Shown here piece by piece: positions 7,709 to 34,161 of a stretch of DNA of 37,872 nt. The position numbers were made by a program, and so were the translations under genes. The first letter of the stretch is position 1; each line of letters opens with the position of its first letter. Origin of the DNA: an uncultured Actinomycetes bacterium (lineage in GTDB: Bacteria; Actinomycetota; Acidimicrobiia; Acidimicrobiales; RAAP-2); contig CAIQUD010000085.1 of the NCBI GenBank assembly GCA_903874965.1, positions 1 to 37,872 on the forward strand. The letters are read 5' to 3'. The notes under the pieces are model-generated. The model had not been told where the DNA came from and did not search any database. It saw only the letters and a program-made list of their open reading frames with translations.

Positions 7709-8461
7709 ATGAAATCCAACCGCCTCACCCGTGCCGCTTCAGTCACGGCAATCTCCGCCGGTCTGTTTGCCGGCACCTTTGGCATTGCTTCGGCTGCAAC
7801 GACGCATCACCCAGCCAAGGCAACGACCCATGCAACTTCAACGGCACCGAGCAAAGGAGCTCCAGGTGACCACCGCGGTCCAGGTGGGTTCCGTGGTCTC
7901 GGTGGCGTCATCACCGCGATCAATGGTTCGACTTTGACGGTCTCAGGACCAGATGGCAAGTCCATTTCCGTGGTGATGACGTCGTCTACCACCGTCTCTC
8001 GTGATGGAGCGACGGCGACGCAGGCATCGCTTGCTGTGGGCGACCACATCAACGTTCGTCCCGACATGGCATCGCTGCCTGCGACGCCTCCAACAACGCC
8101 ACCTACCTCGGTCAATGCCTCGGCGATTGATGTTCGTTCACCCGGTGTTGGTGGAAAAGTTGTTTCCGTCGACACGTCGGGAAGTACGTCAACGATTGTC
8201 GTGGCCGATGAGCAAGGTTTCTACCGAACCATCGTCACGAACGCGTCAACGACGTACCAAAAGGATGGCGCCACTGGCTCCGCTGCTGATGTGACCGTTG
8301 GTGCGCAGGTTCGAGGACTCGGAAGTGTCGATGCAAACCACACGACGCTTGACGCGTCGTCGATTGCCGTTGGACAGCCGAAGGCCCCGTCAACGTCGGC
8401 CGGAATGCCTGATGGCGATGGACCTGGTGGACCAGGTTTTGGTGGTCCAGGAGGTTTCTAA
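7709..8461 (+). CDS. Secreted protein with two DUF5666-like repeats
   Basis: This is an exported protein of 250 aa, ATG 7709 with a strong AAGGAGGA site at 7693-7700. A signal peptide with a basic start, a hydrophobic core and an ASA cleavage site ends near residue 29. Two related beta-rich segments follow, at about 70-118 and 148-205. Each runs from a valine/isoleucine strand through a G-S-T-hydrophobic strand to a closing A-V/T-V-G-x-x-hydrophobic turn, as in the DUF5666 fold. The tail is Gly/Pro rich (about 230-250). Function is not known for this family, though it is often found near envelope two-component systems. Here it is divergent from the regulator/kinase operon and may be a target or accessory sensor of it. 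A terminator follows at 8493. Confidence 0.8.
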   Translation: MKSNRLTRAASVTAISAGLFAGTFGIASAATTHHPAKATTHATSTAPSKGAPGDHRGPGGFRGLGGVITAINGSTLTVSGPDGKSISVVMTSSTTVSRDGATATQASLAVGDHINVRPDMASLPATPPTTPPTSVNASAIDVRSPGVGGKVVSVDTSGSTSTIVVADEQGFYRTIVTNASTTYQKDGATGSAADVTVGAQVRGLGSVDANHTTLDASSIAVGQPKAPSTSAGMPDGDGPGGPGFGGPGGF

Positions 8462-8492
8462 CTCCACTGACCAGCAACGCAACTGAAGGAGA

Positions 8493-8524
8493 GCTCTGGC
8501 CGCGAGGCCGGAGCTTTTCCTTTT
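8493..8524 (+). terminator. Rho-independent terminator after the DUF5666-like gene
   Basis: GCTCTGGCC at 8493-8501 pairs with GGCCGGAGC at 8506-8514 (one G-T pair) around a GCGA tetraloop, followed by TTTTCCTTTT. It lies between two convergent genes, 3 bases before the orn stop region. Confidence 0.9.
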
Positions 8525-8526
8525 GG

Positions 8527-9090
8527 TCAATCTGCTGGTGAAGACTCGCCGTCAACTTGAGTGACAAAGAATGACGACCGATATGCCTGAAGCTCGGTAA
8601 TTGACTCTCGAATGTCATCAAGTGCTCGATGGGAACCCTGCTTCGTGACGAGGCCATCAAGCTGTTCCGGGTACCACCGGCGGGCTAGTTCTTTGATCGT
8701 CGAGACATCAACCGATCGGTAGTGAAAGAAGCGTTCGAGCTCAGGAAGGTACCGAGCGAGGAATCGACGGTCGGTCCCGATTGAGTTTCCACAGAGGGGG
8801 ATCGTGCCTTCCTCGTTGATGTGGAGTCGAAGGAAATCGAGTGTGATGCTGGCTGCATCCTCAAGCGAAAGTGTCGACGCTTTGATTTCGTTCAACAGTC
8901 CCGATGAGGTGTGCATCTCGGTGACAAAGTCATCCATTTCTGCGAGCTCAGTCTCGGTTGCGTGAACGACAAGATCAGGACCCTCGGCCAAGATCGTCAG
9001 GTCGTCATTCGTCAAGATCGTTGCGATCTCGACGATGACATGGCGATCGGTATCGAGGCCGGTCATTTCCAGATCCATCCAAGCAAGCAC
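8527..9090 (-). CDS. orn: Oligoribonuclease
   Basis: This is a DEDDh 3'-to-5' exoribonuclease that degrades 2-5 nt RNAs and linear dinucleotides such as pGpG in the cytoplasm. It is 187 aa from GTG 9090. Catalytic residues are Asp6 and Glu8 in WMDLEMTGLD, Asp107 in GNSIGTDRRFL, and His154 and Asp159 in HRALDDIRES. The frame also opens at a TTG (9123), adding 11 unconserved residues. I prefer GTG 9090 because known Orn proteins begin only a few residues before this motif and because TATCCT lies exactly 6 bases upstream. It converges with the DUF5666-like gene and is divergent from dut with closely packed promoters. Confidence 0.93.
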   Translation of the reverse strand: MLAWMDLEMTGLDTDRHVIVEIATILTNDDLTILAEGPDLVVHATETELAEMDDFVTEMHTSSGLLNEIKASTLSLEDAASITLDFLRLHINEEGTIPLCGNSIGTDRRFLARYLPELERFFHYRSVDVSTIKELARRWYPEQLDGLVTKQGSHRALDDIRESITELQAYRSSFFVTQVDGESSPAD

Positions 9091-9096
9091 GGACGG

Positions 9097-9102
9097 AGGA
9101 TA
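9097..9102 (-). promoter_or_regulatory. -10 box of a probable leaderless orn promoter
   Basis: On the minus strand TATCCT is followed by CCGTCC and then GTG at 9090, the same 6-base spacing seen at dut and other genes. It decides the start chosen for orn. Confidence 0.55.
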
Positions 9103-9132
9103 GTGCCCATTGAGGAACCGCAAGGAAAGGCG

Positions 9133-9138
9133 TAGCCT
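9133..9138 (+). promoter_or_regulatory. -10 box of a probable leaderless dut promoter
   Basis: TAGCCT is followed by GAGGGT and the GTG start at 9145. It lies about 30 bases from the oppositely oriented orn -10 box, so the two -35 regions would overlap. Confidence 0.55.
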
Positions 9139-9144
9139 GAGGGT

Positions 9145-9582
9145 GTGCCCGCCATCAGAGTTCTGCGTCTTGACCAGGACCTCCCGCTACCTCAAGCGGC
9201 CAAAGATGGCGATGCGGGCGTCGATCTCAGGGCAGCCTCTGATGCCATCGTTCCTCCACTTGGGCGAGTGACGATTCCAACGGGGATTGCCATTGCGATC
9301 CCGGAGGGATTTGCGGGATTCGTGGTCCCTCGGAGTGGCCTTGCCAAGAGTCATGGCATTACGTGCCTCAATGCACCTGGACTGATCGACTCGGGCTATC
9401 GAGGTGAGATTGCTTGCATCCTGCACAACGCTGATCCGGATTCAGCATTCGGGGTGAAGCGAGGCGACCGAATTGCGCAGCTCGTGATTATGGCGGTTGA
9501 ATCGACAACATGGGTCGAGGTTGAGCGCCTTGACGAGACAGAACGAGGCGATGGCGGATTCGGACATACAGGGAAGATTTGA
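9145..9582 (+). CDS. dut: Deoxyuridine 5'-triphosphate nucleotidohydrolase (dUTPase)
   Basis: This homotrimeric cytoplasmic enzyme hydrolyses dUTP to dUMP and pyrophosphate, keeping uracil out of DNA. It is 145 aa with a GTG start. The five motifs are in order: DAGVDLRA (about 23-30), PRSGLA, GLIDSGYRGEI with the catalytic Asp, RGDRIAQLVI, and the C-terminal RGDGGFGHTG that closes over the active site. The last base of its stop codon is the first base of the WS/DGAT start codon, so the two genes are translationally coupled. It is divergent from orn, placing two nucleic-acid housekeeping genes back to back. Confidence 0.95.
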   Translation: MPAIRVLRLDQDLPLPQAAKDGDAGVDLRAASDAIVPPLGRVTIPTGIAIAIPEGFAGFVVPRSGLAKSHGITCLNAPGLIDSGYRGEIACILHNADPDSAFGVKRGDRIAQLVIMAVESTTWVEVERLDETERGDGGFGHTGKI

Positions 9583-11015
9583 TGCAACCACTCAGTCCAC
9601 TTGATGCAGCATTTGTCGCCTTTGAAACTGAAGGCGCGCCACTCCACGTCGCCGCAGTCTTGGTGCTCGAAGATCCATCCCCGACGCCTCGCAGCGCCGA
9701 GGAGGCCTACGCCGCTATTCGAGCCATGATCGAGCGACGCATTCATCTCGTACCAGTGATGCGGCAACGAGTGATTCAAGGGCCATTGGGGGCTGCTCCT
9801 CCTGTCCGAGCCGATGACCCTGACTTCGATCTCAACAATCACCTCGGACGTGCCGCACTGCCCAGCCCGGGCGGCGTGAAGGAACTAGAGGCCTATGTCG
9901 GCCGAATTATGTCGAGACCGATGTTCCTTGATCGACCGCTCTGGGAGATGCTCTTCATTGAAGGCCTCGAAGGCGGCAAGTTTGCGCTGATGGCGCGATT
10001 CCACCACGCCGTTCTTGACGGGATCTCCGGAGCGCACATTTTGGCGGAGTTCTTTGACCTCACCATGGAGCCGCGAGAGGTGGAAGCTTCTGGACCGTGG
10101 CTGCCAGAACCGGTGCCGACACAGCAAGAACTCCTCAATGGTGCAGGTGCTGCGTGGGTGAAGCAGCCGATCATTGTCGCCGAGGCTGTTGCGAGGACCG
10201 CCACCTCGCTTCTTCGAGCAATTGACCACAATCACGCGCTTGGTGAAGGCAAGACCCGCCCAACCTCGTTGCTCGCAGCTCCGAAGACGTCAATCAACGG
10301 AACGATCTCAGGGCAGCGGAGTTATGCCTGTGTCAATCTCGACTTCAGTGAAGTGAAGCGCGTTGGCAAGGCACTTGGTGCCACCGTCACGGACGTCGTC
10401 ATGGCACTGACGGCCGGGGCACTCAATCGCTTGATGGAAGCTCGAGGCGAGGTGTATGAGCAAGATCTCGTCGCGATGGTGCCCGTTTCCACCCGTCCCG
10501 AGAGCGAAATTGGATCCCTAGGCAATCAGATTTCGACAATGCTGGTGGGGCTCGCAACAACCATGGCTGATCCAAAAGCTCGCATCGCGTCAATCCGGGC
10601 GAGCGCGCAGGCAGCGAAAGAGCAAGATCGGGTTCTCGGGAGTCAACTCGTTGTTGATCTCACGCAGCTCTTGCCGCCATTCCTGGCGAACCTGCTGACT
10701 CGAGGCGCTCACAACTTGAAGATCTTCGACCACATCCCACCGGTTGGCAATGTCCTCGTGTCCTCAGTGCCAGGACCCGACTTCCCGCTCTGGTGTGGTG
10801 GGCTTCGGATTGCCACCTTGTATCCAGTTGGGCCAATTGCCGCAACCATTGGACTGAACGTGACGGCAATGCGATACCTCGATCACATCTCGCTGGGTTT
10901 CCTCGCCTGCCACAAGTTGGTGCCTGACTTGGAAGAGTTTGCCTCCATGGCGGAGGACGCTTTTGACGAGCTAAGGGACGCTGCAGATGGCCTCACTGCG
11001 TCGGCGACAGCCTGA
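9582..11015 (+). CDS. Wax ester synthase/diacylglycerol acyltransferase (WS/DGAT)
   Basis: This enzyme uses acyl-CoA to esterify diacylglycerol or fatty alcohols and makes storage triacylglycerol or wax esters at the membrane. It is 477 aa, the family length. It begins MQPLSPLDAAF, the conserved N-terminus. Catalytic HHAVLDG is at 141-147 (His141, His142, Asp146), preceded by a PLW motif near 119-121. The domain II NDVV motif reads TDVV in ATVTDVVMALTAGAL, a conservative change. The frame also opens at a TTG three bases earlier, but ATG 9582 in a TGATG overlap with dut is more likely. Such acyltransferases are abundant in lipid-storing actinobacteria. Confidence 0.93.
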   Translation: MQPLSPLDAAFVAFETEGAPLHVAAVLVLEDPSPTPRSAEEAYAAIRAMIERRIHLVPVMRQRVIQGPLGAAPPVRADDPDFDLNNHLGRAALPSPGGVKELEAYVGRIMSRPMFLDRPLWEMLFIEGLEGGKFALMARFHHAVLDGISGAHILAEFFDLTMEPREVEASGPWLPEPVPTQQELLNGAGAAWVKQPIIVAEAVARTATSLLRAIDHNHALGEGKTRPTSLLAAPKTSINGTISGQRSYACVNLDFSEVKRVGKALGATVTDVVMALTAGALNRLMEARGEVYEQDLVAMVPVSTRPESEIGSLGNQISTMLVGLATTMADPKARIASIRASAQAAKEQDRVLGSQLVVDLTQLLPPFLANLLTRGAHNLKIFDHIPPVGNVLVSSVPGPDFPLWCGGLRIATLYPVGPIAATIGLNVTAMRYLDHISLGFLACHKLVPDLEEFASMAEDAFDELRDAADGLTASATA

Positions 11016-29783: not shown

Positions 29784-30412
29784 CAACGGCCACTGACAAG
29801 AATTGGACTCGATCACTCCGAAAAGCAGGTGAGTCAGCGTTTCCTCCGGAACGACTTCTTCCCGACACGCAACCGAGTTACGTCGCCTCGTGGATCTACG
29901 TCTTTGGTGCGCTCACGATGGCGGCACTTGGAGTTGTCACGGCTACGGGATTGGTGCTGGCGGTCATGGGTCCAACTTGGTGGCACCACTCCTCAACTGG
30001 CCACTTCATCAATTCAATGCACCTTTGGTCGGTTGAATTGTTCTTCTTTGCCATGGTGGTTCACCTATGGGGCAAGTTCTTCATGGCAGCTTGGCGAGGC
30101 AACCGAGCGCTGACGTGGATAACGGGCGTCGTGAGTTTTGTTGTCTCCATTGGAACGGCATTCACGGGTTATCTCTCGCAGACGAACTTCGATTCACAGT
30201 GGATTGCCACGCAGGCCAAGGACGGCATTAACTCAACAGGAGGAGGAGCCGTCTTCAACGTCCTCAACTTCGGCCAGATGCTCATGTGGCACATCACGCT
30301 TCTGCCAATTGGCGTTGGAGCCATTGTGGTCTTCCACGTGCTGCTCGTTCGTCGTAGGGGAGTGGTTCCACCCTTTGAACTTTCCGGTGCAAAAGAGGAG
30401 GTCGCACAATGA
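29780..30412 (+). CDS. Cytochrome b/b6 N-terminal domain protein, diheme
   Basis: This is a four-helix quinol-oxidising-type cytochrome b of 210 aa with a GTG start. Heme ligands are His81 and His95 in the second helix (MHLWSVELFFFAMVVHLWG) and His171 and His186 in the fourth (MWHITLLPIGVGAIVVFHV). The pair spacings are 14 and 15. A 15-residue spacing in helix four is the cytochrome b6 pattern; bc1-type cytochrome b has 14. The C-terminal half of a bc1 cytochrome b is not present, and the next gene does not encode a classical subunit IV. It overlaps both neighbours by four bases, so the three proteins are made together. No Rieske or cytochrome c gene is in the window. Confidence 0.92.
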   Translation: MTTATDKNWTRSLRKAGESAFPPERLLPDTQPSYVASWIYVFGALTMAALGVVTATGLVLAVMGPTWWHHSSTGHFINSMHLWSVELFFFAMVVHLWGKFFMAAWRGNRALTWITGVVSFVVSIGTAFTGYLSQTNFDSQWIATQAKDGINSTGGGAVFNVLNFGQMLMWHITLLPIGVGAIVVFHVLLVRRRGVVPPFELSGAKEEVAQ

Positions 30413-31365
30413 CGAAGTCCTCAAGACGATTCAATATTGACCGTGATGTTGCACCATGGACCGGCGCAACCAGGCCTTATGACATTGCCAAGGAAGTAGC
30501 AATTTGCTTCTTGGTAATCGGTCTGCTCACGGTCGGGCTTTCCGTGCTGTTCTCCTCGCCGGATGATCCGGCGGTGACGCTCAAGCAGTGGGCCGTTTCG
30601 ACGCCGATTGACTTTGCGACGACGGCGGCAACCGAGCTCGATGGAACGGGTGGCACCGCTGGATATGGCCCTCCGTATAACACGGCGGCCGATGGACCAA
30701 TGGTGCTCGGCATCTCTCCAGCGAAGATTGCTGGCGTGCACATTCCCGTTGATGCGGCGAAGGACTTTGTCCTTTCACCAGTAGCGGCGTTGCCAGAGAA
30801 CCCTGTCGCTTCACAGGCGATTGCTACCTATGAAGCGGCAAGTGTTGAACAGCGCCAAACCTGGGCTGCCAACTATGACGCAGCCGTCACCGCATCGACT
30901 GTGACCACAGCTGGCGGGAAGGTGATCGTTGCGCCCGGTGACTATGGACCGGTTGCAACGATTGTCGATCAGCTTGTTGCGATGGCTCAGTCGGGCGCAC
31001 TCGACACGACCATGCTGACGCAGCAGCGATTCTTCTCCACGGACTTTACAAAGCCGCTGTTGTTCATCTCGGATGGAAGTTTCCTTGCCAACAAGGCTGC
31101 CATTGATCATCTCCAAGGCGACCAGTGGGGAATGATGAATGAGACAGGATCCTGGCCCGGCCAGGCATGGCTCTGGCTCTACACCATGTGGTATCAGGTG
31201 CCAGGGCTCTCCACCTCGGACAATGCGGACCTCCAAGTCTTCCTCATCATCATTGGCTTGACGCTGCTGCTCGCGTTCTTGCCCTTCATTCCTGGACTCC
31301 GTTCGATTCCTCGATGGACTCGTGTCTACAAGGTGATCTGGAAAGACCACTACCGAAACATGTAG
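30409..31365 (+). CDS. Two-helix membrane protein with large outer domain, cytochrome b partner
   Basis: This 318-aa protein has a cytosolic start with TRPYDIAKE, TM1 at about 29-48, an outer region of about 215 residues, TM2 at about 270-290 and a basic cytosolic end (PRWTRVYKVIWKDHYRNM). The outer region contains AGYGPPYN and GVHIPVDAAKDFVL but no CxxCH heme site and no Rieske motif. Similar proteins accompany b6-like subunits in several actinobacterial and acidobacterial genomes as far as I recall, but no function is established. The start overlaps the cytochrome b stop (ATGA). The position suggests a structural or electron-accepting subunit of a reduced cytochrome b complex. A terminator follows. 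Confidence 0.8.
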   Translation: MTKSSRRFNIDRDVAPWTGATRPYDIAKEVAICFLVIGLLTVGLSVLFSSPDDPAVTLKQWAVSTPIDFATTAATELDGTGGTAGYGPPYNTAADGPMVLGISPAKIAGVHIPVDAAKDFVLSPVAALPENPVASQAIATYEAASVEQRQTWAANYDAAVTASTVTTAGGKVIVAPGDYGPVATIVDQLVAMAQSGALDTTMLTQQRFFSTDFTKPLLFISDGSFLANKAAIDHLQGDQWGMMNETGSWPGQAWLWLYTMWYQVPGLSTSDNADLQVFLIIIGLTLLLAFLPFIPGLRSIPRWTRVYKVIWKDHYRNM

Positions 31366-31388: not shown

Positions 31389-31422
31389 ACAATCCCGCCC
31401 GTGAGGGCGGGATTGTTGCTTC
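31389..31422 (+). terminator. Hairpin terminator after the cytochrome b cluster
   Basis: ACAATCCCGCCC at 31389-31400 pairs perfectly over 12 bp with GGGCGGGATTGT at 31405-31416 around a GTGA tetraloop. The downstream tract TGCTTCTC is poor in T, so termination may be partial. Confidence 0.75.
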
Positions 31423-31473: not shown

Positions 31474-31498
31474 GAGACAGTCCGACAAAGGATGTCTC
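31474..31498 (+). promoter_or_regulatory. Leader hairpin before the di-iron operon
   Basis: GAGACA (31474-31479) pairs with TGTCTC (31493-31498). Inside, TCC pairs with GGA after a bulged G, with loop GACAAA. It ends 11 bases before the GGAGGGG ribosome-binding site at 31510-31516, so it may shape initiation or mRNA stability. Confidence 0.4.
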
Positions 31499-31518
31499 AT
31501 TGGATCAATGGAGGGGTT

Positions 31519-32616
31519 ATGACCATCGACATGGAAATGGATCTTGAGTACCTCGAGCGTGCGCAGCGAGGTGAGTTCGACCTCGGGTGGCTTCGTTCAA
31601 CAACCTCAGAGTGGGGTGTTCGAGCTACGCCATCAAAGACCGGGCTTACCCTCCGCGACATATCAATTGGTTCCTATGGTGTGATCCCCGAACATGCGCC
31701 ACGAAGGTCCATGGCGCCTCGCGGGTCAGATGTAGAAGTTGGAGTTCCAGACCTCGGCTACACGATCAATGATCGTGCGGAAGTGTGGTCAGACAATGTG
31801 ATGGACCTCTACGAAGAAGCCGTTGCGCGCCAGTGGAGCGCAACGCGAGACATTGCGTGGAACGATCTTCGACCGCTTGACCCAGACGTTGAGCATGCAA
31901 TGTGCCAGTTGGCAACTGTGCTCTCCGAGGTCGAGATGGTTGCCGCAGATTTTCCAGCCAAGTGGCTCTGGCAGATCAATCAAGACTTTGTCGAAGCAAA
32001 GATGTTCCTCTGCACCCAGGTGATGGACGAAGCTCGCCATGCCGAGGTGTTCAGGAAGCGTGCTCTCGCGAATGGCGGAGGGCTGGGGAAGGCAACAGCC
32101 GTCATTGAGCGGTTCCTCCAACTCATTCTTGACGCGAAGAGTTACGACGAGGGCTCTGCGCTCATGCACCTCCTTGGAGAAGGAATTGTGTTGTCCCTGT
32201 TCAGGGCTGGAGAGGCACTTGCTCCTTCACCGGTGGAGCAGCAGATCTTCCGACTCTGCATGCAGGACGAGGCTCGTCACGTTGCCTATGGGACCATGCA
32301 CTTGAAGTACCGCCTTGCCGCAGATCCGTCCATGGCTTCGGACTTCCACGCCTATCTCGACAAGGGCGAAGAGATCATGACCATGATCTTCTCGACACCT
32401 GAGATTGTCGAGCCCACGTCGATTCTGGCTGCCGGAAGTGTTGAAGCAGCAATGGCCCTCGGCACTGGAGCTGGCGACATTTTGCGCAAGCAAATCATTG
32501 GCGATTACTTGAAGCGCTGTCGTCATGCGGGGCTTGATCGAGCCGGTCGACTGCAACTTCCTGAGACAATGTGGTTGGACGTTCCAGGGGCAACGCTTGA
32601 AGCGGTGGCGTCATGA
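31519..32616 (+). CDS. Ferritin-like di-iron carboxylate protein (R2/AurF-like oxygenase)
   Basis: This is a predicted soluble di-iron oxygenase or oxidase of 365 aa. The four-helix-bundle ligand set is visible in order: Glu137 or Glu139 in VLSEVEMVAADFP, Glu171-x2-His174 in DEARHAEVF, Glu221 in LLGEGIVLS, and Glu251-x2-His254 in QDEARHVAYG. The helix before the bundle carries RQWSATRDIAWNDL, a pattern shared by ferritin-like proteins of actinobacteria. The preferred start is ATG 31519 after GGAGGGG; an ATG at 31492 lies inside a leader hairpin. It is coupled by ATGA to a small protein and then a ferredoxin, a likely electron donor. Substrate unknown; N-oxygenation, desaturation or hydroxylation are all possible. 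Confidence 0.85.
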   Translation: MTIDMEMDLEYLERAQRGEFDLGWLRSTTSEWGVRATPSKTGLTLRDISIGSYGVIPEHAPRRSMAPRGSDVEVGVPDLGYTINDRAEVWSDNVMDLYEEAVARQWSATRDIAWNDLRPLDPDVEHAMCQLATVLSEVEMVAADFPAKWLWQINQDFVEAKMFLCTQVMDEARHAEVFRKRALANGGGLGKATAVIERFLQLILDAKSYDEGSALMHLLGEGIVLSLFRAGEALAPSPVEQQIFRLCMQDEARHVAYGTMHLKYRLAADPSMASDFHAYLDKGEEIMTMIFSTPEIVEPTSILAAGSVEAAMALGTGAGDILRKQIIGDYLKRCRHAGLDRAGRLQLPETMWLDVPGATLEAVAS

Positions 32617-33050
32617 AGACGGCCATTCGTCCCTTCCCCTCACATGAGGTGTTCGACCAAGCTATTGCCGTTGCAGAAGCGAATGGCACCTTGGCAAGCC
32701 TCGGAGCAGCTGACCTTCGACTTGGAATTGAGGTGCTCGACGACGAGGAGAAGAACTTCTTCGGGATCACCTTTGTCGATGATGTCGTGACCGCCACTGG
32801 ACCGGTTTCTGAAGATTGGTACCGACCCGAAGTGGTGTTGTCGGCAACCGCTGCGACCTGGGAAGAGATGGTGGAGGTCATTTCTGTCAATGGCCGTGCT
32901 GATCTTGGGCACACCATCAATTCGTTGAGCCTTGCCAACACACCTGTTTCCGTCCGCGGGGACGATCCAATGGGTGAGGACAAGCTCTATCGGTTTATGG
33001 GTTCGGTCCAGGCGGTGTTTGACGCCATTGGTCAGAAGTTGGCGGTCTGA
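32613..33050 (+). CDS. Small protein between di-iron oxygenase and ferredoxin, possibly SCP2-like
   Basis: This is a 145-aa soluble protein. The N-terminus (IRPFPSHEVFDQAIAVAEANGTLASLGAADLRLGIEVLDDE) suggests a helix then a strand. The centre is a beta-sheet (FGITFVDDVVTATG), and the C-terminal part (GHTINSLSLANTPVSVRGDDPMGEDKLYRFMGSVQAVFDAIG) loosely recalls the sterol-carrier SCP2 layout, in which a sheet is followed by a closing helix that gates a lipid pocket. I am not sure of this assignment. Its start lies in the ATGA overlap with the di-iron gene and the ferredoxin follows after two bases. A role as substrate carrier or regulatory component of the oxygenase is therefore inferred. Confidence 0.65.
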   Translation: MKTAIRPFPSHEVFDQAIAVAEANGTLASLGAADLRLGIEVLDDEEKNFFGITFVDDVVTATGPVSEDWYRPEVVLSATAATWEEMVEVISVNGRADLGHTINSLSLANTPVSVRGDDPMGEDKLYRFMGSVQAVFDAIGQKLAV

Positions 33051-33052
33051 AC

Positions 33053-33454
33053 TTGGCACTCAAGATCCTCCTTGAAGAGTGCATTGGTTGCGGTGGGTGC
33101 GAGTCGACGTGTCCGACTGGAGCAATCCAACAGGGCGACGGATTTCCCGTCCTCTACGGAGTCGACCCGCTTCGCTGCAATGACTGCAATCAGTGCCTCA
33201 CGGTTTGTCCAGTCGATGGGATTGCTGTCGATCCTGAATGGGCAATTTGCCATGGGCGGGGGTGTCCCCTCGCTTCCGCCCGGCTCGAAGGCGTGGCCTG
33301 CAGCGAGGGCGGCGCAAGCTGCCCAGACTGCGGCGCCATGTTGTGGCAACGCCCCGGTGAAGCGTGGGCCTGCCCGACATGTTCCGCTGCTCCTGGAACC
33401 CATGTTGCCTCTTGCCCGAAGGCAAAGAAGGCAAAGCGGCTGCGTTCTGCCTGA
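33053..33454 (+). CDS. Two-cluster ferredoxin with C-terminal Cys-rich module
   Basis: This is a 133-aa protein with a TTG start two bases after the preceding stop. The ferredoxin part has Cys10, 13, 16, 20 (CIGCGGCESTCP) and Cys42, 45, 48, 52 (CNDCNQCLTVCP), ligands for two [4Fe-4S] clusters. It then carries Cys66, Cys71 and Cys83, followed by Cys90-x2-Cys93 and Cys107-x2-Cys110 (CPDC...CPTC), a zinc-ribbon or small rubredoxin-like knuckle, and Cys121 before a Lys-rich end. The 13-residue gap between the CxxC pairs is too short for classical rubredoxin. It is the probable electron donor of the di-iron protein two genes upstream. The extra module is unusual. Confidence 0.88.
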   Translation: MALKILLEECIGCGGCESTCPTGAIQQGDGFPVLYGVDPLRCNDCNQCLTVCPVDGIAVDPEWAICHGRGCPLASARLEGVACSEGGASCPDCGAMLWQRPGEAWACPTCSAAPGTHVASCPKAKKAKRLRSA

Positions 33455-33504: not shown

Positions 33505-34161
33505 ATGGTGTTCGGATTGAGGAAGTCAAGCGCAATGGTGGAGGCCGGAGCGGCTCTTCCAGGTCGACCGACGCCACAGGTGCCGACGCGCCCCCATTTG
33601 GTTCTTGGGACATCAATGGTTGCCCCCTACCCAGAAGGCACTGAAGTTGCCTCTGTCGCGCTTGGCTGCTTCTGGGGTGCGGAACGTGCCTTCTGGACCC
33701 TGCCAGGAGTGCTGACCACGGCCGTTGGTTATCAAGGTGGCTTTACGCCGAATCCTTCGTATGAAGAAGTGTGCTCCGGTCGGACGGGCCACGCTGAAGT
33801 CGTGTTGATTGCTTTTGACCCGACGAAGCTTTCCTATGCCACGCTCCTCTCGGTGTTCTTCGAGAACCACGACCCGACGCAGGGCATGCGTCAGGGCAAT
33901 GACGTTGGAACCCAGTATCGATCCGCGATCTACACCACAACCCTTGAACAAGCGGCAATGGCGGAAGCCGCTGCTCGCTCCTTCGGTCAGCGGCTTCAAG
34001 AGAACAAGCTCGGACCCATTACGACGGAAATTACAGCCGCAGGGTCGTTCTACTTTGCCGAGGAGTACCACCAGCAGTACTTGGCCGCCAACCCGAATGG
34101 ATATTGCGGACTGGCTGGTACCGGCGTGAGCTGCCCGGTTGGCTTGTTTGCGTCGAGCTAG
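33505..34161 (+). CDS. msrA: Peptide methionine sulfoxide reductase A
   Basis: This cytoplasmic enzyme reduces the S-epimer of methionine sulfoxide in proteins. It is 218 aa, with an N-terminal arm like that of E. coli MsrA. The catalytic Cys55 is in GCFWG. The recycling cysteines Cys201 and Cys210 lie in [11 protein letters not shown], so the three-cysteine relay is complete. Conserved RTGHAEVV and [11 protein letters not shown] are present. ATG 33505 is preceded by AAGGAGG. Its end overlaps the convergent nitronate monooxygenase-like gene by four bases. No msrB is adjacent. Confidence 0.96.

Follow-up and report, generated by a model that had tools for sequence, protein, structure and literature searches.

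What might three tightly joined genes on a contig of an uncultured Actinomycetes bacterium do together? They occupy positions 31519 to 33454 of the window (the whole stretch of 37,872 nucleotides that was analysed) and lie on its plus strand, as do the stem and the residue motifs located below. Gene 1 (31519..32616, 365 aa) encodes a putative R2lox-like di-iron carboxylate oxygenase, gene 2 (32613..33050, 145 aa) a protein modelled in the SCP2 fold and proposed to carry a hydrophobic substrate, and gene 3 (33053..33454, 133 aa, 16 Cys) a 2[4Fe-4S] ferredoxin with a C-terminal Cys module. An earlier note had described an ATGA overlap at the first junction and a gap of 2 bases at the second, and the coordinates agree: the start of gene 2, at 32613, falls within the ATGA that it shares with gene 1, and two bases separate gene 2 from the TTG start codon of gene 3 at 33053. 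The ATG of gene 1 is preceded by a purine-rich GGAGGGG (31510-31516), and the frame is open from another ATG, at 31492, as well. A terminator-like stem (31398..31411) lies between the trio and the cytochrome-type genes upstream; we grade it as weak because the scan of this stretch gave one such stem, where chance alone predicts 1.8. Further upstream, after a cytochrome b-like gene, positions 30409-31365 encode a 318-aa membrane-type protein that has no significant Pfam family and is probably part of a bc-type complex; msrA starts at 33505, downstream of the trio. A functional link of the trio to these cytochrome-type genes or to msrA was rejected because most related loci have other neighbours.

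Is this arrangement more than an accident of one contig? The earlier note had named a lack of co-occurrence of the three genes elsewhere as a finding that would refute its reading of them as one oxygenase unit. A profile of gene 2 gave 43 matches in 39 of the 397 genomes of the order, and gene 1 accompanies every one of them, adjacent in 41 cases and separated inside one cluster in 2. In these two (G220 and one copy in G331), one or two amidohydrolase genes stand between genes 1 and 2, joined in G220 by a HyuB-type gene. Gene 3 lies near nearly all gene 2 loci; it is absent nearby at L012, L102, L120, and L123, which are full-length, and divergent at L101. The distribution searches covered the phylum of the window: in a phylum-wide sample of 396 genomes, gene 2 matches occurred only in genomes of Acidimicrobiales, and a protein-pattern scan of the sequence collection returned only close relatives. 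The carriers are little-studied bacteria of soil, water, and mines. Gene 2 was found neither in the one genome of the same genus nor in the other genomes of the same family that were sampled, and such a patchy distribution indicates frequent gain and loss. A comparison of the window with L003, its nearest relative, shows the three genes to be under strong purifying selection, with dN/dS of 0.011 for gene 1, 0.056 for gene 2, and 0.060 for gene 3. These low values, and the recurrence of the trio in more than 40 further loci, argue that the association is not due to chance. In one bog genome (L004 5971-7954), the trio can still be recognised, but genes 1 and 3 contain TAG codons in frame, which reflect either decay or an assembly error.

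Gene 1 had been credited with a full E, ExxH, E, ExxH set of di-iron ligands. In an alignment of 57 rows, the window sequence among them, all six are invariant (57/57): E139 (31933..31935), the E and H of E171-A-R-H174 (32029..32040), E221 (32179..32181), and the E and H of E251-A-R-H254 (32269..32280). We assigned the first ligand to E139 because the neighbouring E137 is kept in only 51 of the 57 rows; in the profile alignment, the first ligand stands one residue away from the position of E69 in R2lox. The AlphaFold2 model (pLDDT 85.6, pTM 0.84) folds into a four-helix bundle that carries E139, E171/H174, E221, and E251/H254, with one long helix for each ligand motif (H122-150, H155-186, H209-234, H238-268). 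Foldseek places R2lox and R2 on top (TM by target of 0.5-0.7), the former at about 20% identity. No Pfam family scores above its cut-off, and AurF, R2, and DUF455 appear at noise level. When sequences of solved structures were searched with a family profile built on 18 rows, a homologue of VlmB (6d9f) came first, at E 4e-11, with R2lox next to it (E 1.5e-10).

Does gene 1 then belong to one of these families? First, it has the dimetal ligand set of R2lox, four Glu and two His in a ferritin-like bundle, and scores 44.2 bits with the R2lox model NF006200 of NCBIfam, below the cut-off of 194. The ether cross-link of R2lox is formed by a Tyr (Y162 in GkR2loxI) and a Val, and the position of this Tyr, M216 in gene 1, holds M, L, or I in 57/57 rows. 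Second, the ribonucleotide reductase R2 family (PF00268) gives 13.2 bits, below its gathering threshold of 33.6. The radical Tyr of class Ia/Ib R2, which lies four residues past the first His ligand, corresponds to F178, a Phe in 57/57. Third, AurF (PF11583) reaches 15.2 bits, below the 29.6 required for gathering. AurF uses H223 as an extra His ligand, four residues ahead of the last ExxH Glu; the equivalent position 247 is C, A, S, V, or T, and never His, in all 57 rows. This absence bears on the possibility that gene 1 acts as an N-oxygenase, like VlmB or AurF, and that an N-oxidised metabolite is the product of the trio. VlmB converts a hydrazine to an azoxy compound (PMC11705231), and its homologue is the best match of gene 1 among the sequences of solved structures. 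Yet the fold search ranks R2lox and R2 first, the neighbours include no recognised gene for a tRNA-dependent or N-hydroxylating partner, and the extra His is missing at C247 and its equivalents, which makes N-oxygenation very unlikely in our view. Bacterial multicomponent monooxygenases left no trace either, with no match to a hydroxylase Pfam family and no gene for a second subunit at the locus. Gene 1 is thus not simply an R2lox, an AurF, or an R2, and is best read as a member of an undescribed subfamily of R2lox-like di-iron oxygenases.

A close comparison is with a sister di-iron subfamily (L045-L047, L050) that has the same ligands and is 34-42% identical to gene 1. Its members differ from gene 1 in having a TusA-like domain at the N terminus (PF01206, under the cut-off, with a weak Pfam match in L046) and in lacking genes 2 and 3 nearby. 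The tree separates them from the gene 1 group with full support, and they form a distinct, undescribed cluster; the open literature yielded nothing relevant on a fusion of TusA with a di-iron protein. They adjoin acyl-CoA dehydrogenases of the Rv1679 type, and three of the four loci (L045-L047) also encode a binding protein of the Rv1680 type. We did not accept that acyl-CoA dehydrogenase partners the trio in general: it has a fixed place only beside the TusA-fused sisters, and these genomes probably have many such genes. The genome of the window also encodes a second, AurF-like di-iron protein (L002, G000:C7:41-367), seen as well in L053 and in many relatives of the order, and about 33% identical to the core of gene 1.

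What does gene 2 contribute? Searches of its sequence against Pfam, NCBIfam, and solved structures gave nothing significant, the SCP2 family of Pfam matched none of 12 family members, and the SCP2 entries 1wfr and 2cx7 surfaced among solved structures at E 0.7. The AlphaFold2 model (pLDDT 86.1) is more telling. All five Foldseek matches at E<=0.001 are SCP2-fold proteins, headed by TT1886 (E 1.6e-4, TM 0.61), with UbiJ-SCP2. Gene 2 is thus assigned to the SCP2 fold from its model, at TM 0.5-0.6 and without sequence support. SCP2 proteins are binders of hydrophobic ligands, and from this property and the modelled fold, gene 2 likely encodes a carrier of a hydrophobic substrate, which fits the earlier suggestion that the middle protein could present the substrate. 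One could instead see gene 2 as a coupling protein that, like MmoB or TmoD, regulates the activation of O2: it is small, lacks a cofactor, and is always encoded with the oxygenase, and the succession of hydroxylase, small protein, and Fe-S protein recalls bacterial multicomponent monooxygenases. But gene 2 matched no family or structure of coupling proteins, and the fold matched by its model is one whose known members bind hydrophobic ligands, so we regard a coupling function as unlikely and retain the substrate carrier.

Gene 3 would provide the electrons. Its Fer4 score is 41.0 bits against a cut-off of 21.1, and two CxxCxxCx3C motifs supply eight Cys for two [4Fe-4S] clusters (C10, 13, 16, 20, 42, 45, 48, and 52; 33080..33208), conserved in 47/47 rows. 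The further module that had been noticed beyond these eight Cys is also well kept: it comprises C66-x4-C71-P, C83, C90xxC93...C107xxC110, and C121 (33248..33415), and all 16 Cys of the protein are found in 46 or 47 of the 47 rows. The additional eight may bind a third cluster together with a zinc or rubredoxin-like site. The extra module of one relative has weak similarity to zinc ribbons, and no convincing relative of the C-terminal module was found among solved structures. A role in anti-phage defence was considered and dropped, as PADLOC has no match to genes 1 and 2 and its BrxP match to gene 3 spans only the ferredoxin Cys motifs. At least 11 loci encode, between genes 2 and 3, a protein of roughly 70 aa with a CxxC motif (e.g., L042 6882-7091); it has a conserved PYGWWEW-like stretch and at most a weak match to zinc ribbons.

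The three roles put forward in the earlier note (oxygenase, partner that could present a substrate, and electron donor) are supported by these results. The trio had also been called a self-contained oxygenase. It does encode its own ferredoxin donor, but a ferredoxin needs a reductase, and since the unit in the window has none, "self-contained" is slightly too strong. Where could the electrons come from? About a dozen loci have two further genes beside the trio, often with one for an Rrf2-type regulator nearby: the first encodes a NapH-like membrane protein (Fer4_5), the second a GltD-like Fe-S flavoprotein that matches flavodoxin weakly. The NapH-like protein is present in 24 of the 39 genomes with the trio and in 60 of the 358 others (Fisher p 7e-9, not corrected for kinship), and it is plausible that it supplies the trio with electrons together with the flavoprotein. 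The two were rejected as obligatory partners because the window's own genome, which is 85% complete, has no NapH-like match. At two loci, a CofD-like gene (F420 biosynthesis) was recognised by eye just upstream of gene 1 (L007 4688-5770, L090 8708-9778).

Other neighbourhoods bear on the substrate. In a deep branch (L120, L123, L125), genes 1 and 2 cluster with two PF04909 amidohydrolases and with homologues of HyuA and/or HyuB, whose best NCBIfam models are subunits of caprolactamase and acetophenone carboxylase, well below cut-offs. At L113, a dihydropyrimidinase (8251-9717, above the NCBIfam cut-off) follows directly 3' of gene 3. Because some relatives thus cluster with genes resembling cyclic-amide hydrolases, the trio may act on a small ring compound instead of a lipid. 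The same clusters would suit a catabolic oxygenase that opens the breakdown of a hydrophobic ring compound, for example a lactam, a ketone, or an N-heterocycle. The hydrolases are, however, confined to this one branch and one other locus, and neither the window nor most other relatives have recognised neighbours of this sort, so that we find a catabolic role improbable for the trio.

The gene structure, the conserved ligands and Cys, the modelled folds, the linkage, and the purifying selection are directly supported, and the reading that we favour, and hold to be rather probable, is that the trio is a three-component, O2-dependent oxygenase fed by a ferredoxin, to which the SCP2-fold partner presents a hydrophobic substrate. 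The [4Fe-4S] clusters of gene 3 would pass electrons to gene 1, whose four-helix bundle would hold two metal ions, either Fe/Fe or the Mn/Fe pair of R2lox. Gene 1 would then activate O2 and either insert oxygen into a hydrophobic organic substrate or desaturate it, and this substrate would be held in the SCP2-fold cavity of gene 2 and handed over within a complex of the proteins. We infer the occupancy of the metal site, the flow of electrons from gene 3 to gene 1, the formation of the complex, and the hydrophobic nature of the substrate. Hydroxylation of C-H bonds is the leading chemistry because R2lox binds a fatty acid in its putative substrate channel (PMC6399176) and because GkR2loxI has been reported to be an alkane hydroxylase (PMC10867098); both agree with a substrate of hydrophobic nature.

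A bolder version, which we put forward tentatively and with the odds somewhat against it, is that the trio represents a new class of multicomponent di-iron oxygenases. The SCP2-fold protein would take the place of the usual coupling or acyl-carrier partner and deliver a membrane-derived lipid or terpenoid to the R2lox-like site, and the ferredoxin would carry a third Fe-S or zinc module. R2lox-like proteins occur widely, and few of their reactions have been assigned. If the trio is confirmed as an oxygenase with its own carrier and donor, the di-iron oxygenases would gain a new architecture. Since a candidate carrier and a candidate donor are here encoded with the oxygenase, there is a direct route to the substrate, which is to identify what the carrier binds. 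Reconstitution of the trio would take three small soluble proteins and a reductase.

How does the trio compare with known systems? A ferritin-like di-iron oxygenase with an electron carrier is of a known kind; the subfamily and its SCP2-fold partner appear to be undescribed, and we found no description of the combination of SCP2, di-iron, and ferredoxin proteins in the open literature. R2lox (GkR2loxI, 4hr0) is the best fold match of gene 1, with which it has in common the four-helix bundle and the Glu, ExxH, Glu, ExxH ligands, and it possesses a hydrophobic ligand channel. Gene 1 differs from it by its SCP2-fold and ferredoxin partners, by the lack of the cross-link Tyr, and by an NCBIfam score under the cut-off. 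Among the sequences in the PDB, gene 1 matches VlmB best, through its homologue 6d9f, and the ExxH pair is of like kind, whereas the partners of gene 1 are different and the identity is low over about 165 residues; an azoxy-biosynthesis context (VlmO, VlmA, and others) was not recognised by eye among the neighbours. The soluble methane (sMMO) and toluene monooxygenases also combine a hydroxylase, a small protein, and an Fe-S electron carrier, in contrast to which the trio has no family match, no second hydroxylase subunit, and another fold in its small protein. UbiJ-SCP2, from ubiquinone biosynthesis, has the SCP2 fold in common with gene 2. No sequence relation to the trio was found for UbiJ-SCP2, COQ7, or COQ9; the hydroxylases that UbiJ serves are flavin enzymes, and the fold of COQ9 is a different one. 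The di-iron hydroxylase COQ7 works with COQ9, a partner that presents the lipid, and on this comparison the trio would likewise have a hydroxylase that is served by a partner able to bind lipids.
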